6,083 bases of DNA from a bacterium (lineage in GTDB: Bacteria; AUK180). Where the stretch lies: the NCBI GenBank assembly GCA_030622125.1, contig JAUXGM010000136.1:1-6083 (forward strand). The letters are read 5' to 3'. A model generated the notes under the pieces. That model was not told the origin of the DNA, did no database searches, and saw only the letters and a list, made by a program, of their open reading frames with translations. Below, in pieces: positions 134 to 6,083 of this stretch (the first letter of the stretch is position 1; every line of letters starts with the position of its first letter). The position numbers and the translations under genes are program-made.

Positions 134-859
134 TTATCCCAAAACATCCTGCATTGAATAAAGTCCTTTTTCCTTACCAAAAAGGAATTTCATTGCATTG
201 ATGGCACCAACGGCAAAGGTGTCTCTATTTGATGCACGATGCGTAAGTTCTAATCTTTCACCATTTCCAAAAAAATAAACGGTATGTTCTCCGGCTACAT
301 CCCCGCCTCTAACAGCAAATATTCCAAGTTCTTCTTTTTCTCTCTTTCCCGTATGTCCTTCTCTTCCATAAATAATTTTCTTATCACTACTTGCATTTAG
401 GATTTCCCCCAATCTTTTTGCTGTTCCGGATGGAGCATCAACTTTTCTATTGTGATGTATCTCAACGATCTCATTTTCAAAATCGGGGAATGCTCTTGCT
501 GCTATATCCGTAAGCTTGAAAAGAACATTTACACCTAAACTCATATTCGGAGAAAATAAGATCGGAATAAATTCCGAAGCAGCTTTTATTTTCTGCTTTT
601 GTTGATCATTAAATCCCGTCGTTGCTATTACTATCGGTATCTTATTATCAATAGCGAACTTTAAAAGCTCCATCGTAAGAATCGGTGAAGAAAAATCTAT
701 TATTCCATCACTTGGTTTTAATTTTTCAAGAGATGTTACCGTTTTTTCATTTGGGATCTTATCTAACCCTTGAAAAAATTCAAGGTCATTATTCTTATTC
801 AGCAGACGAATTAGGCGTTTTCCCATATCTCCAAGGGAACCGCCGACCGTTATTTTCAT
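134..859 (-). CDS. dapB: 4-hydroxy-tetrahydrodipicolinate reductase (DapB)
   Basis: Cytoplasmic enzyme reducing the DapA product with NAD(P)H to tetrahydrodipicolinate in the diaminopimelate/lysine pathway. The 241-residue protein has an N-terminal Rossmann nucleotide-binding loop (about residues 6-13, GGSLGDMG), the ATTG motif at 79-82 (usually GTTG), SPNMSLGVN at 103-111, and the catalytic segment EIHHNRKVDAPSGTA at 133-147 with the expected His135, His136 and Lys139. RGG at 184-186 and GEH at 190-192 complete the family pattern, and the C-terminus ends in the usual DVL-type tail. It is shorter than the E. coli enzyme (273 residues) but all core motifs are intact. The start codon overlaps the dapA stop as ATGA, preceded by AAGGA six bases upstream (866-870), so translation is probably coupled. 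Oddity: the position equivalent to E. coli Arg16 in the glycine loop is Asp11, which may affect cofactor choice. Confidence 0.96.
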   Translation of the reverse strand: MKITVGGSLGDMGKRLIRLLNKNNDLEFFQGLDKIPNEKTVTSLEKLKPSDGIIDFSSPILTMELLKFAIDNKIPIVIATTGFNDQQKQKIKAASEFIPILFSPNMSLGVNVLFKLTDIAARAFPDFENEIVEIHHNRKVDAPSGTAKRLGEILNASSDKKIIYGREGHTGKREKEELGIFAVRGGDVAGEHTVYFFGNGERLELTHRASNRDTFAVGAINAMKFLFGKEKGLYSMQDVLG

Positions 860-1731
860 AAGATGTCCTTGTTAATTAAGATATCTCTCAAATGATCGAG
901 TGTTTTTTTATCCATTTTTGTAAGTGGCAATCTAAATTCATTTTTTATCATTTTCATCAGGTATAAACAGGTTTTGACGGGTATCGGATTTGTAGTTAAA
1001 AACATTGCTTTATGTAATGGATACAATTTATTATGCTGGGTTGCCGCTTCCTTTAATTTACCACTGTTAAAAAGGTCAATTACCTTTTGGATCTTCTTGG
1101 GTATTAAATTTGCCGTAACCGAGATCACGCCAATACCGCCAATTGAAAGAAAAGGAAGTAAAGTAAGATCATCACCACTTAACATAAGAAATGAATCCGG
1201 AACTAAATTTTTGATCTCGATCGCCTGGTTCATAGAACCTGTTGCTTCTTTTATGCCGATAATGTTTTTAAATTTTGAAAGTCGTCCTACCGTTTCGGGA
1301 GCAATGCTTACCCCTGTTCTGCCGGGAACATTATAGATCACTACCGGGAACTTTGATTTTTTCGCAAGATAAGAATAATGTTCATACAAGGAATCCTGAG
1401 GCGGTTTATTGTAGTAAGGTGTTACCACAAGGGCTGCATCCATACCATTTTCTTTCGCCATCATCGTTTTTTTGAGGGATTTTCGGGTAGAGTTTGTGCC
1501 CGTACCGGCTAAAAGCGGCACCTTATTTTTTAATTTTGTAACTGCAATTCTAAATAAATTATGGAGTTCCTCATCGGTTAAGGTCGGCGCTTCCCCCGTT
1601 GTACCACCTATTAGAATTCCACTTGTTTTTTTAGCTTTGTGAAAATCAAGTAATTTACTGTAAGCATCGTAATCTATCTTTCCATTTTCATCGAATGGTG
1701 TTACCAGAGCAACTATTGTACCTCTAAACAT
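856..1731 (-). CDS. dapA: 4-hydroxy-tetrahydrodipicolinate synthase (DapA)
   Basis: Condenses pyruvate with aspartate semialdehyde, the first committed step to diaminopimelate and lysine; cytoplasmic TIM-barrel aldolase. The 291-residue protein matches the family length, and its catalytic residues fall at E. coli numbering without shift: GGTTGE with Thr44 and Thr45, TPYYNKP with Tyr107, YNVPGRTG with Tyr133 and Arg138, and the Schiff-base Lys161 in IKEATG. This separates it from sialate lyases and other pyruvate aldolases of the fold, supported by dapB directly downstream. The start is fixed by AAGGAG seven bases upstream (1739-1744) and by the conserved N-terminus beginning F-x-G-T. The gene starts 8 bases inside the end of ftsH and overlaps dapB by 4. 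Residues that bind the feedback inhibitor lysine in E. coli are mostly replaced (position 49 Pro, 53 Asp, 56 Leu, 84 Lys; Asn80 kept), so I infer weak or no lysine inhibition. Confidence 0.96.
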
Positions 1732-3550
1732 TTTTATTCTCCTTTCTTTTATATCTATTTATTATTCTATTTAATTCGGTGCCGGTCAAGGTCTCTTTTT
1801 TTATAAGTTCCTTTACAATCGTTTCAACTAATCCCTTATTTTCTTTTAATAAATTACTTGCTTTTTCATGCTCATTCTCAATTAAGAATTTTATTTCATT
1901 GTCTATTTTCTCAATTGTAGCTTCGCTTATATTTTTATGTGCTATCAACTCTTTACCCAAAAATATCTCCTCATTTTCAGATGGAGCATAAAAAAGAGGA
2001 CCAAGTTTATCACTCATTCCCCATTTTGTTACCATCATTCGTGCCAGATCGGTTGCCCGCTTTAGATCATGTTCCGCACCGGTAGTTTTTGTTTTAAGAA
2101 ATACCTCTTCCGCTGCTCTACCACCAAGAAGAACAGTGATCTTATTGGTAAGATTCTCTTTTGTATAGTTATGCACTTCCTTTTTAGGCAACTGCACCGT
2201 CATTCCAAGTGCCATACCTCTTGGAATAATAGAGACCTTATGAATATCCTCACCTTTGTCTATCAGAACACCGATCAAGGCATGGCCGGTCTCATGATAA
2301 GCAATCGATTTTTTCTCCTCGGGTGAAAGAATCATACTTTTCCTTTCAAGTCCCATTAGTACCTTGTCTTTTGCTTCTTCAAAATCAACCATCTTTACAC
2401 TCTTTTGATTTTTTCTTGCTGCAATTAGAGCTGCTTCATTAACAAGATTAGCAACATCGGCACCCGACATACCCGGAGTACCCTTTGCAATAATACTTAA
2501 TTTTACATTTCTGTTAAGTGGGATATTTTTTGTATGGACTTTCAAAATACCTTCTCTTCCTCTGACATCCGGAATAGGAACAATAACTCTTCTATCAAAT
2601 CTGCCCGGTCTTAAAAGAGCAGGGTCAAGTATATCAGGTCTATTTGTCGCCGATATAATTATAACACCTTCATTTGCATCGAAACCATCCATCTCAACAA
2701 GGAGTTGGTTCAGCGTTTGTTCTCGTTCGTCATGACCGCCGCCAAGCCCTGCTCCTCTATGTCGTCCAACCGCATCAATCTCGTCAATAAAGATTATACT
2801 TGGGGCAAGCTGTTTAGCCTTATTAAAAAGGTCTCGTACCCTTGATGCCCCGACACCGACAAATAATTCTACGAACTCGGATCCGGAAACGGTCAAAAAT
2901 GGAACCTCCGCCTCTCCCGCCACTGCTTTTGCAAGGAGTGTTTTTCCAGTTCCGGGTGCACCGATCAGAAGTACACCTTTTGGTATTTTTCCACCAAGCT
3001 TTGTAAATTTCTTCGGATTTTTCAAAAACTCAATGATCTCTTCCAATTCCTGTTTTGATTCTTCACATCCCGCGACATCCGAGAATTTAACATCTACATT
3101 CTTCTGTATCTTTTCTTTTACCTTACCAAAGGTCAAAGCACCGCTGTTAGCGGAATTGATCTGTTTAAATATCATAAAAAATATAACAATTGTTAAGGCA
3201 AAAAAACCTACTGTTGAAAGTATTTCAAAAAATGAAGGACCCTCCCTTTTTACATTAACGGTAACACCTCTTTTAACCATTTTATCTACAAGTTGATTAT
3301 TATCAAATGGGATCTGTGATGTAAAACGATAAAAATCCTTCCCATCTATTTTTACAGCTTGATTAAATTCACCGTTGATCGTTCTATTTATAAATACAAC
3401 TTTTTTTATATTCCCGTTTTCAAGTTGCCAATTTAATTTAGTTAGATCTATCGGGATCGTTGTCATTGACATCCCTAATTTCACTAAAAAATATGCAATA
3501 ATGATAATTGTAACTATTATTAGCCCTTCCCTAAAAAAATTCTTTTTCAT
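1724..3550 (-). CDS. ftsH: ATP-dependent zinc metalloprotease FtsH
   Basis: Membrane-anchored hexameric AAA+ protease that extracts and degrades misassembled membrane proteins and selected cytoplasmic regulators. The 608-residue protein has the full family order: transmembrane helix at about 8-27, a periplasmic/extracytoplasmic domain of about 85 residues, a second helix at about 112-129, then the AAA module with Walker A GAPGTGKT (197-204), pore loop FVGVG (230-234), Walker B IIFIDEID (252-259) and the second region of homology ending RPGRFDR with arginine fingers Arg314 and Arg317. The zinc protease site is HETGH at 419-423, with the third ligand probably Asp495 in TTGAEHD. The C-terminus is a short charged helix, making it somewhat shorter than E. 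coli FtsH (about 644). The start is supported by GGAGGT at 3554-3559, close to the ATG, and by an ATGA overlap with the tilS stop. The tilS-ftsH pairing is known from Firmicutes, but the hpt gene usual between them there is absent. Confidence 0.98.
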
Positions 3551-4815
3551 TTTACCTCCAGAATATCTTTTAAACCTTCATCAAAGATTCTGATGCCCGG
3601 AACAATTGCGATCCTTGAATTGTATATTATCAATGGATAGAATTGCCTCAGCAGCAGATCAACTTTATTTTTTTTAAAAAGTTCGGAAATAAGGTATTTT
3701 TTTCCTTCTTTTTCTACCTGATCACCGTATTTAAATGGTCTTATTTCGATATTAATATCCCTTTTAAGACCTATACTCCATCTTTTGAACGGCATAATCA
3801 GTTCATAACCGCCCTTTTCAGTAAGTCTTCTTTTTATTGCTATCTTTTTCAATTCACTCTCTTTATAGACATAAACATATCTATATCCTTTAAATATATA
3901 ATAATTTTGACTTATTTTCAAATATTTTCCACCTTTTTTTTGAAAAAATGTTCTTAACTCATCAAAATATACCCTTTTTATTAAGTCCTGCGGATAATCA
4001 AGTTCAAATAACATTTGCTTTAATACCTCGAAATGAATTATTTGGAAGCCGTTTTCAGAAATTGGAACACGATAGATACCAAGGTCGGATTCGACATTCT
4101 TATTATAAAATTTTGACACTTCATCATTGGCATAATCAAGTAATTCCCGTTCATCGTTATAAAAATCAATAAAGTGCTCCTTCCAGTTATGAAATCTCTC
4201 TGAAAGCGGATTTAAAATATCCCTCCGTAAAAAATTTCGGGTGTATCTTATATCGGAATTTGATCTGTCAATCCTATATTTGATCTTCTTTTTTTCTAAA
4301 AATTCAATGATCTCTTTTTTTTCAACAGAAAGTAACGGTCTGATGATGTTCATACCGTTATTTTTTGTCTTTTCAGTCATTCCAAAGATGGTATTTATTG
4401 ATCTGCCTGATATGATCTTCATAAAAAATGTTTCAATCAAGTCATCAAGGGTATGAGCGATAAAGATATTTTCTTCATTGTATTCTTCTAATATCTCTTT
4501 AAAAAAAGCATATCTTATATCCCTTGCCCATTTTTCAAGATTTCCTTTTGATGGACGCTTGGCATCTTTAACTAAAATATCTATACCCCATTTTTTGCAG
4601 GTCTCTCTGACAAGATACTCATCCTTATTTGAATCATCACTGCGTAAATGATAATTTATGTGAAGAGCAAAAAGTTTAAAGTTAGAACCTTTTCTCGCTT
4701 CATTTAACATATAGAGGAGAAAAATAGAATCAGGTCCACCTGATACACCGATGAAAACATGCTCTACTTTTTTACAATAATTGTTTATATTTGAAATGAT
4801 TTTTTGCATACCCAT
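3547..4815 (-). CDS. tilS: tRNA(Ile)-lysidine synthetase (TilS)
   Basis: Ligates lysine to C34 of tRNA-Ile2(CAU), changing its decoding from AUG to AUA and its charging from Met to Ile; normally essential. The 422-residue protein has the N-type ATP pyrophosphatase loop SGGPDS at 25-30, HINYHLR at 52-58, ARDIRYAFF at 97-105, AHTLDD..ET at 120-129 (usually AHHxDDQxET), RPLL at 159-162, and DRSN (183-186) followed by YTRNFLR (191-197). The C-terminal region at about 356-412 (RPFKYGD ... [10 protein letters not shown]) resembles the TilS C-terminal tRNA-binding domain, so the protein looks full length. Residue 1 at 4815 and residue 3 at 4809 are both possible ATG starts; the PP-loop distance allows either. 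Neither has a Shine-Dalgarno sequence, because the DNA upstream is the acceptor stem of a tRNA ending only 3 bases before the first ATG. Its stop overlaps the ftsH start. Confidence 0.95.
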
Positions 4816-4818
4816 ATA

Positions 4819-4893
4819 TAGCGGGACTGGGGATCGAACCCAGGACCTTACGGGTATGAGCCGTACGCTCTAACCAGTCTGAGCTATCCCGCC
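4819..4893 (-). tRNA. tRNA with CAU anticodon, probably elongator tRNA-Met
   Basis: Folded by hand on the minus strand. Acceptor stem GGCGGGA pairs with TCCCGCT (six normal pairs plus G1-U72) and discriminator A73. U8 and A9 are in place, the D stem is GCTC/GAGC, the anticodon stem TACGG/CCGTA surrounds loop CTCATAC (anticodon CAU, 4856-4858), and the T stem is CTGGG/CCCAG with loop TTCGATC. Every stem is intact. No CCA is encoded; the next bases are TAT and then the tilS ATG. CAU is shared by elongator Met and by Ile2, the TilS substrate. The G4-C69 and G5-C68 pairs differ from the C-G pairs at these places in E. coli tRNA-Ile2, and the C at position 38 and G1-U72 look Met-like, so Met is preferred, but Ile2 is not excluded. 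Confidence 0.93.
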
Positions 4894-4903
4894 CGAAAAA
4901 AAT

Positions 4904-4980
4904 TGGTGGCGGGGACTGGATTTGAACCAGTGACCTTTGGGTTATGAGCCCAACGCGCTACCAAACTGCGCTACCCCGCG
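4904..4980 (-). tRNA. initiator tRNA-fMet (CAU)
   Basis: Folded by hand on the minus strand; 77 bases including an encoded 3' CCA (4904-4906). The acceptor stem CGCGGGG/CCCCGCC leaves position 1 unpaired with 72 (C1 against C72), the initiator hallmark that permits formylation and blocks elongation use. The anticodon stem TTGGG/CCCAA carries the three consecutive G-C pairs (29-31 with 39-41) needed for P-site entry, around loop CTCATAA. The D stem is GCGC/GCGC and the T stem ACTGG/CCAGT with loop TTCAAAT. Two features differ from the usual bacterial initiator: mismatch C-C rather than C-A, and C11-G24 rather than the purine11-pyrimidine24 pair. It is the first gene of the minus-strand unit, and its 5' end lies 10 bases from the -10 box. 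A 10-base spacer with seven T's separates it from the next tRNA. Confidence 0.95.
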
Positions 4981-4990
4981 TTAAATTGTT

Positions 4991-5039
4991 ATTATACCTA
5001 TTTTTATTATCTTTGTCAAGGATTTTTTTTGTTTTTTTT
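4991..5039 (-). promoter_or_regulatory. Consensus sigma70 promoter with A-tract upstream element for the tRNA-tilS-ftsH-dapAB unit
   Basis: On the minus strand a perfect -35 box TTGACA (5014-5019) and a perfect -10 box TATAAT (4991-4996) are separated by exactly 17 bases. Directly upstream of the -35 are two A8 tracts (5023-5030 and 5032-5039) resembling an UP element contacted by the RNA polymerase alpha subunit. Start of transcription is expected near 4982-4987, leaving a leader of only a few bases before the initiator tRNA at 4980. A full 12/12 match with ideal spacing fits strong constitutive stable-RNA transcription. No attenuator or riboswitch can fit in so short a leader. Confidence 0.9.
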
Positions 5040-5066
5040 GCAAAATTTTGTTTTTAATGTTATATT
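5038..5066 (+). promoter_or_regulatory. Candidate promoter for the divergent methyltransferase gene
   Basis: On the plus strand TTGCAA (5038-5043) and TATATT (5061-5066) are separated by 17 bases, matching the sigma70 consensus at 4/6 and 5/6. This would start transcription at about 5072-5073, on top of the ATG at 5072, implying a leaderless mRNA. The region is so A+T-rich that such matches arise by chance, so support is modest. A perfect 10-base palindrome, CAAAATTTTG (5041-5050), sits in the spacer. Confidence 0.35.
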
Positions 5067-5071
5067 ACCTT

Positions 5072-5896
5072 ATGTTTAACCAAAAATATAAAGAAAAAAC
5101 CGACTCATTCGGAAAGATCATTATTACAGAAAATTTAACAAAATTTGCAAACAAAGAAGAATTAAATTGGCGCAATCAAAAACAATTCAGTAAGGATGAG
5201 AAGTATAACAGTTTTGAGAAATGGAAAAAAATCTATAGTGATGGTAGGATTTGCATTCCTGAATTTTTAAATAAAAAATTCCATTTGAGAGGAAAAATAC
5301 TTGAGATCGGAACAGGTTCCGGTTGGCTGACCTCGTATATTTCAAGATTTAATGATATTAAAGAGATTTACGCACTTGATTATTCCTTTGTTACGCTTTC
5401 CGAAAATTTTCCCAGGGTCGGTAAATGGATGAATGCAAATAAAGATAAGATCATTAGGGTTCTCGGTGATTTTCACTCTCTGCCTTTTGAGGATAATAGC
5501 CTTGATTTTGTGTTATGTGATGCTGCACTTCACCATTCTGATCATCCCGATATCATCCTGAAAGAAGTAAAGAGGATCCTTAAAAAAGATGGGATATTTC
5601 TTGCTTCTTCTGAACCGATAGCATCAAAATGGCGGATAAAAGAACAGAAAAGAAATTTTGGGAAGGAAGAAAAGGAACATGGAATTACTGAAAATATCTT
5701 TACAAGAGATGAATGGGTATCATTTTTTAAAGGAGCAGGTTTTACTCTTGAATTTATCCCATTTACTTTTTCAGAAAACTCATCAAAATTTAAAAACCTT
5801 ATTAAAAAATATACCCCATTGAGATTTTTTAACGGGTATCTGTTTTCAAACTATATATTCTGTGTAAAAAAGAGGCATTTGCGAAATTCTAAATAG
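5072..5896 (+). CDS. Class I SAM-dependent methyltransferase of unknown substrate
   Basis: Soluble protein of 274 residues if started at the ATG at 5072. Residues below count from there. A polar N-terminal region of about 70 residues precedes the Rossmann methyltransferase core: motif I ILEIGTGSG at 76-84, the acidic ribose-binding Asp103 after the second strand (ALDYS), LPFEDNSLDFVLC at 137-149 (motif II/III region), DAALHHSD at 150-157, and KEVKRILKKDG at 164-174, the usual Methyltransf_11 pattern. A later FTRDEW (210-215) resembles the TxxEW segment found in many small-molecule methyltransferases. Nothing points to a substrate. ATG at 5057 and TTG at 5048 extend the frame to 279 or 282 residues with a hydrophobic leader (FLMLYYLMF), but no candidate has a Shine-Dalgarno sequence; 5072 gives the more natural N-terminus. 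It is transcribed away from the tRNA unit and is functionally unlinked as far as can be seen. Confidence 0.85.
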   Translation: MFNQKYKEKTDSFGKIIITENLTKFANKEELNWRNQKQFSKDEKYNSFEKWKKIYSDGRICIPEFLNKKFHLRGKILEIGTGSGWLTSYISRFNDIKEIYALDYSFVTLSENFPRVGKWMNANKDKIIRVLGDFHSLPFEDNSLDFVLCDAALHHSDHPDIILKEVKRILKKDGIFLASSEPIASKWRIKEQKRNFGKEEKEHGITENIFTRDEWVSFFKGAGFTLEFIPFTFSENSSKFKNLIKKYTPLRFFNGYLFSNYIFCVKKRHLRNSK

Positions 5897-5901
5897 CCAA
5901 T

Positions 5902-5950
5902 AATATTAACCACAGAGCACACAGAGACAGAAAGAAGAGCACCAGAGCAC
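5902..5950. repeat. Degenerate purine-rich short repeat (CACAGAG/GAGCAC type)
   Basis: Starts six bases after the methyltransferase stop with AATATTAACCACAGA, followed by CACAGAGCA and CACAGAGAC in a 9-base rhythm, then decaying AGA-rich sequence. GAGCAC occurs three times (5915, 5937, 5945). The 15-base opening sequence recurs exactly at 6038-6052. No coding frame here is credible; this looks like dispersed intergenic repeat debris. Confidence 0.65.
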
Positions 5951-5974
5951 AAGTTACAAGTCAAATACAATTCA

Positions 5975-6026
5975 GTCATATTGAGCACTTCACTTTGTTC
6001 AGCACAGGCTCCGCGAAATATCCAGC
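5975..6026. repeat. Putative dispersed intergenic repeat element with small hairpin
   Basis: The stretch opens GTCATATTGAGC and closes CCGCGAAATATCCAGC, the two halves of a short intergenic element that I recall as common in many environmental bacterial genomes, here separated by about 25 bases. TGAGC (5982-5986) can pair with GTTCA (5997-6001) around a 10-base loop, including one G-U pair. The segment is more G+C-rich than its surroundings. Recognition is by memory of the motif style; dispersal elsewhere in this genome cannot be seen from one window. Confidence 0.45.
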
Positions 6027-6037
6027 ATTTAAATAAC

Positions 6038-6073
6038 AATATTAACCACAGATTAGACAGATTTGACAGATTA
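6038..6073. repeat. 9-bp tandem repeat, three units, with 15-bp lead shared with the upstream repeat
   Basis: AATATTAACCACAGA (6038-6052) repeats 5902-5916 exactly. It leads into three consecutive 9-base units, CACAGATTA, GACAGATTT and GACAGATTA (6047-6073), which differ at the first and last positions only. The array is close to the window's right edge and the units appear to end at 6073. Confidence 0.7.
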
Positions 6074-6083
6074 AAAACTTTAT

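Follow-up and report, generated by a model that had tools for sequence, protein, structure and literature searches.

A tilS gene directly behind tRNA-Met: a possible near-leaderless mRNA made by tRNA 3′-end processing

In the 6,083-nt stretch of DNA from an uncultured bacterium analysed here (the window), the reading frame of tilS begins only a few nucleotides behind a tRNA-Met gene on the same strand. This arrangement raises the question of where the 5′ end of the tilS mRNA comes from, and how translation starts behind a leader that would leave so little room for a Shine-Dalgarno (SD) sequence.

The transcription unit and its tRNA-Met/tilS junction

The features of the unit, from the promoter to the last gene, are the following.

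4991..5019, minus strand: sigma70-type promoter TTGACA-17-TATAAT with 12/12 consensus matches, preceding both tRNAs and tilS-ftsH-dapA-dapB
4904..4980, minus strand: initiator tRNA-fMet(CAU), found by ARAGORN, with encoded CCA, anticodon-stem GGG/CCC and a 1-72 mismatch
4819..4893, minus strand: elongator tRNA-Met(CAU), found by ARAGORN, without encoded CCA; A73 is base 4819
4810..4818, minus strand: leader after tRNA-Met, UAU before ATG1 (4816-4818) or UAUAUGGGU before ATG2 (4810-4818), without SD
3547..4815, minus strand: tilS, tRNA-Ile lysidine synthetase (TIGR02432), with ATG1 at 4815 and the likelier start, ATG2, at 4809
1724..3550, minus strand: ftsH, with its own SD GGAGG (3555-3559) and an ATGA overlap with the tilS stop
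856..1731, minus strand: dapA, with its own SD AGGAG (1739-1743)
134..859, minus strand: dapB, with its own SD AAGGA (866-870) and an ATGA overlap with the dapA stop

The assignment of TilS is based on TIGR02432 (E = 4e-54, 183.4 bits against a cut-off of 93.6) and on the SGGxDS motif, present as SGGPDS at residues 25-30. The promoter is the sole promoter-like site on the minus strand within 4500-5200, a scan of that strand found no terminator or internal promoter between tRNA-Met and tilS, and the successive reading frames overlap by 4 (tilS/ftsH), 8 (ftsH/dapA) and 4 (dapA/dapB) bases. We infer that the two tRNAs and the four genes form one transcription unit; this co-transcription belongs to the overall explanation set out below, and is held with the same moderate confidence. 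A terminator-like hairpin, ATCAGG-TGGA-CCTGAT followed by TCTATTTTTC, lies inside tilS at 4729-4744 (minus strand), over the SGGPDS codons; with one found and 0.4 expected, it could be a chance product of the codons for this motif. On the other side of the promoter, a divergent SAM-dependent methyltransferase-like gene (5048-5896, plus strand) has its upstream region in common with the promoter of the tRNAs, and a short repeated intergenic motif (ATATTAACCACAGA...) is found downstream of this gene, in 5900-6083.

The adjacent CAU tRNA was also considered as tRNA-Ile2, the substrate of TilS, and this identity was rejected, the tRNA being of the elongator Met type. In the related genomes G003, G004 and G005, a third CAU tRNA has the same GGGCC acceptor as tRNA-Ile(GAU) and is the expected tRNA-Ile2. 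It was not found among the 40 tRNAs of the host genome, probably because of an assembly gap, since the Asp and Asn tRNAs are missing as well. The 1-72 mismatch of tRNA-fMet is C1.C72 in the host and is kept in the relatives with varying bases (C.C, C.A in G002 and C.U in G005). It is reported in PMC5143459 that genes for initiator tRNAs frequently encode CCA where other tRNA genes do not, and the pairing of a CCA-encoding tRNA-fMet with a CCA-less tRNA-Met fits this description.

On the minus strand, the junction reads CCCGCTA73 followed by TATATGGGTATGCAA. An earlier reading of this DNA, made from the sequence alone, had placed the end of the CCA-less tRNA at A73 (4819) and the first tilS ATG at 4815, and both coordinates proved exact by ARAGORN and by the sequence itself. 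The gap of 3 bases that it derived from them stands for ATG1. A second in-frame ATG, at 4809, would give a leader of 9 nt, and the protein begun there (MQKII) aligns without gaps with the starts of the relatives' proteins (MYKII, MQFLL, MIESL), whereas the use of ATG1 adds two residues (MG) to the host TilS. For this reason ATG2 is the likelier start: the tilS leader is probably 9 nt long, and ATG1 is probably an upstream in-frame ATG instead of the real start, although, as the one nearest to the 5′ end, it could still be used if the mRNA begins at A73+1.

The same reading held that tilS has no ribosome-binding site, unlike the other three genes of the unit, and the computed SD energies agree with it on both counts: 0.0 kcal/mol at ATG1 and +2.6 at ATG2, against -9.9 for GGAGG of ftsH, -9.0 for AGGAG of dapA and -4.9 for AAGGA of dapB. 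The strong SD that ftsH possesses bears on the further suggestion that tRNA processing might control the whole of tilS-ftsH-dapAB. The statement that SD absence is not a genome-wide habit went too far, as only 37-50% of 40 host ORFs (at least 180 aa), all from the sampled loci, have an SD at or below -4 kcal/mol. The host genome is AT-rich, about half of its genes lack a strong SD, and several further genes directly behind tRNAs also have an SD-less leader of 9-11 nt. The released 5′ region of the tilS mRNA is computed to be unstructured, and the start of the gene is AT-rich.

Short leaders behind tRNAs in related and distant genomes

The order promoter, tRNA-fMet, tRNA-Met, tilS is the same in 4/4 genomes of the family and in one relative from the class (G005). 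The leader between tRNA-Met and tilS measures 9 nt in G003, 12 in G002, 13 in both G001 and G004, and 10 in G005, where the tRNA-Met encodes CCA. Thus, the comparison of spacings that had been proposed as a check shows that the ultra-short leader is kept across the family and in the class relative. No family genome combines the loss of the tRNA with the presence of an SD, the case named as a refutation; yet G001 and G004, which belong to one genus, hold an SD-like AGAGGA inside the 13-nt leader, a motif lacking in G002, G003 and G005. In more distant phyla, tilS follows at 7 nt after CCA in G052 and at 13 nt after A73 in G048, in both cases without SD. G048, whose class comprises four genomes only, has a true RNase Z together with its CCA-less tRNA-Met 13 nt before tilS, and a relative from its family (G293) retains tRNA-Met directly upstream.

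A wider survey of 142 bacterial tilS loci covered the 260 nt before the SGG motif and found a tRNA there in 45; 43 of these tRNAs were CAU tRNAs, elongator-like by appearance and without rigorous classification. CAU tRNAs ordinarily make up about 3 of 45 tRNA genes, so the adjacency with tilS is a real and widespread neighbourhood. The gap between the two genes varied in the survey, and some loci carry a terminator and a new promoter between them; for example, the two genes are separated in L119 and L165 (in G142 and G277) by a hairpin of the terminator type and by a promoter, TTGACA/TATATT, that ends about 10 nt before the ATG. An SD was found in 5/28 tRNA-linked and 34/110 unlinked tilS genes, and this weak trend led to the rejection of the idea that linked tilS genes are poorer in SD across bacteria. 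Taken together, the variable gap, the intervening terminators and promoters, and the SD counts indicate that the tight fusion is a trait of certain lineages and not of tRNA-Met/tilS in general.

The junction of tilS is not the only one of its kind. Inspection of the tRNA 3′ junctions (all those available for the host, G003 and G004, and part of those of G005) revealed SD-less genes 9-13 nt behind tRNAs for Gln, Gly, Arg, Leu, Glu and Ser in addition to Met; the host tRNAs with this geometry are Met, Gln, Gly, Arg(cct) and Leu(taa), and more were found in relatives. A GlmU-like nucleotidyltransferase gene follows tRNA-Gln(UUG) at 10, 10, 10 and 13 nt, and three genera have the same distance of exactly 10 nt despite spacers (AAATTTGTAT, TAATAAAGAT, GAATATTGAT) whose sequence is not conserved. 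Further cases are tRNA-Gly(CCC) and a gene for a PHP-domain protein (11, 15 and 9-10 nt), tRNA-Arg(CCU) and a gene for an HD-domain protein (9 nt, in the host), tRNA-Leu(UAA) and a gene for a membrane protein (11 nt), tRNA-Glu(CUC) and a glycosyltransferase gene (10 nt), and tRNA-Arg(CCG) and the next gene (11 nt). The PHP gene (L036:647-1489, minus strand; L231:1583-2419, plus strand) resembles that of RNase RNM / 3′,5′-nucleoside bisphosphate phosphatase, below the cut-off, so that a tRNA would here be joined to the gene of an RNA-related enzyme.

Independent pairs with a leader of at most 13 nt all fall at 9-13 nt (9/9). Furthermore, the presence of an SD at the tRNA/gene junctions depends sharply on leader length, with 2/16 for leaders of at most 13 nt versus 18/21 for longer ones (Fisher p = 1e-5, from a hand-curated table in which homologous pairs from related genomes are counted and are hence not independent). 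The tRNA 3′ ends contain no -35/-10 pair from which transcription would start within a leader, and the lone strong match, at the Gly-PHP junction of G003, would start inside the gene; the simplest reading is therefore that these genes are transcribed from the tRNA promoter. In G004 (L271, G004:C26), the HD gene lies 43 nt from tRNA-Arg(cct) and is preceded by TTGAAA-17-TATAAT, which ends 6 nt before the ATG, so transcription itself apparently makes this gene leaderless, as though the near-leaderless state had been retained despite the gap of 43 nt.

Origin of the tilS 5′ end and alternative explanations

The explanation that we prefer, and hold to be moderately probable, starts from a single transcript of the whole unit. 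In the course of tRNA-Met maturation, an endonuclease would cut the 3′ end at A73 or immediately behind it and so part the tRNA from the mRNA. The tilS mRNA would keep no more than 9 nt in front of its start (3 nt in the case of ATG1), which is too short for an SD, and translation would begin in a leaderless-like, SD-independent way. tilS would then be one case of a class that recurs in the family, namely protein genes situated 9-13 nt behind a tRNA and probably freed by its processing. The cut, the mRNA 5′ end and the mode of initiation are all predictions from sequence comparison, and we claim neither that the enzyme is RNase Z nor that the arrangement is regulatory.

That tRNA maturation creates the tilS 5′ end had been proposed in the sequence-only reading, and this part of the proposal gains from the upstream promoter, the lack of a terminator or further promoter, the conservation and the recurrence at other tRNAs. 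Its choice of RNase Z as the cutting enzyme fares worse. In the host genome, which is 96% complete, no protein scores above the TIGR02651 cut-off, with weak metallo-beta-lactamase-fold matches only, the best of which resemble a YycJ-type hydrolase and further proteins of this fold. Short RNase Z-like proteins occur in G003 (L066:1462-2088, about 74 bits) and G002 (about 72 bits), against a cut-off of 293; the former has the RNases Z of B. subtilis and T. maritima among its PDB matches. In addition, tRNAs with encoded CCA (Gln, Arg-CCU), which RNase Z of the bacterial type normally spares, are followed by SD-less leaders just as short as that of the CCA-less tRNA-Met. CCA inhibits the bacterial-type enzyme, and the T. 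maritima type lacks a motif implicated in this inhibition (PMC3161902), while cleavage 3′ of CCA-less tRNAs also takes place in P. acnes, which has no obvious RNase Z (PMC3848588). The host has the CCA-adding enzyme, RNase Y and RNase PH, and a search found RNase E/G to be absent from it.

The best surviving alternative, to which we give a minor but real chance, is that the junction reflects simple compaction with no special consequence: general nucleases (RNase Y, RNase PH) would cut and trim the transcript, and tilS would be translated by the SD-independent route common to about half of the genes. The enzyme content of the host suits this view, as do the half of the sampled ORFs that lack a strong SD and the AT-rich, unstructured start of tilS. 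Against compaction stand the clustering of short leaders at 9-13 instead of 0-8 nt in independent pairs, the exact 10-nt distance of the Gln/GlmU-like pair with its differing spacers, and the sharp change of SD presence with leader length.

The lower bound of about 9 nt would be unexpected if leaders of 0 nt were acceptable after cleavage, and this speaks for another, improbable alternative in which initiation takes place on an uncut tRNA-mRNA chimera. The tRNA would then act as a stable 5′ cap, with its acceptor helix near the site of the SD helix on the 30S subunit, and 9-13 nt would be the distance needed; CCA-encoding tRNAs with the same spacing and the lack of a clear RNase Z are consistent with it. 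On the other hand, the chimera requires ATG2 and not ATG1, the leader of G052 is 7 nt, and the tRNA has to mature for use. To our knowledge, such initiation has no precedent. Least probable of all is a tilS promoter within tRNA-Met that yields an ordinary short-leader or leaderless mRNA, as the lineage of L119 and L165 might suggest; this candidate was rejected because the promoter scan gave no site on the minus strand near 4819.

Known systems and implications

Pairs of tRNA and protein genes are conserved elsewhere, as in tRNA-Thr/tuf and tRNA-Trp/secE, which resemble tilS and its tRNA in being close together on one strand. The longer-leader pairs of this type in the genomes examined here, among them a tRNA-Leu/trigger-factor-like pair, differ from tilS in that their leaders are mostly 12-36 nt long with a good SD.

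If processing at A73 is confirmed, the tRNA-tilS arrangement, which is real and conserved, would be a new form of a known phenomenon. In the open-licence papers searched, no account was found of tRNA 3′ processing making bacterial mRNAs leaderless or near-leaderless. Several mRNAs of a bacterium would then owe their 5′ ends to tRNA 3′ processing, which would join, on one transcript, the supply of tRNAs with the expression of protein genes, including that of a tRNA-modifying enzyme. It would also provide a natural set of near-leaderless mRNAs for the study of SD-independent initiation, and the widespread adjacency of CAU tRNAs and tilS offers species of other phyla as a testing ground.

Leaders shorter than 10 nt have been classed as leaderless by transcription, with 264 cases in S. 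coelicolor and 5 in E. coli (PMC4681348). If its 5′ end is A73+1, tilS, which lacks an SD, would belong to this class, its leader being 3 or 9 nt long. Unlike that of the transcriptional cases, this end should carry a monophosphate left by processing and not the triphosphate of a transcription start. Leaderless mRNAs are also made by RNase III in S. aureus (PMC3386247) and by MazF in E. coli (cited in PMC3848588). The likeness to these cases is that an RNase and not a promoter would set the near-leaderless mRNA; the difference is that the cut would belong to housekeeping tRNA 3′ maturation, with no toxin or RNase III.

The closest parallel is tRNA punctuation, established in mitochondria (Ojala, Montoya and Attardi 1981, as described in PMC10941002), where tRNAs abut reading frames and the processing enzymes free mRNAs that are almost devoid of leader. 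The bacterial loci have same-strand frames directly after tRNAs, with no terminator or promoter between them, and this recurs at several tRNAs. They differ from the mitochondrial system in that a subset of genes is involved, the spacers are mostly 9-13 nt, other genes have SDs, and the processing is proposed from sequence. With more reserve than the explanation given for tilS itself, we put forward as a tentative possibility that tRNA punctuation has a counterpart in this bacterial lineage, a system in which unrelated genes would obtain near-leaderless mRNAs through tRNA 3′ maturation, with a preferred spacer of 9-13 nt and SD-independent initiation, and in which tRNA-Met/tilS would be an old and widespread linkage. 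If so, the logic of the mitochondrial transcripts would reach a bacterium.
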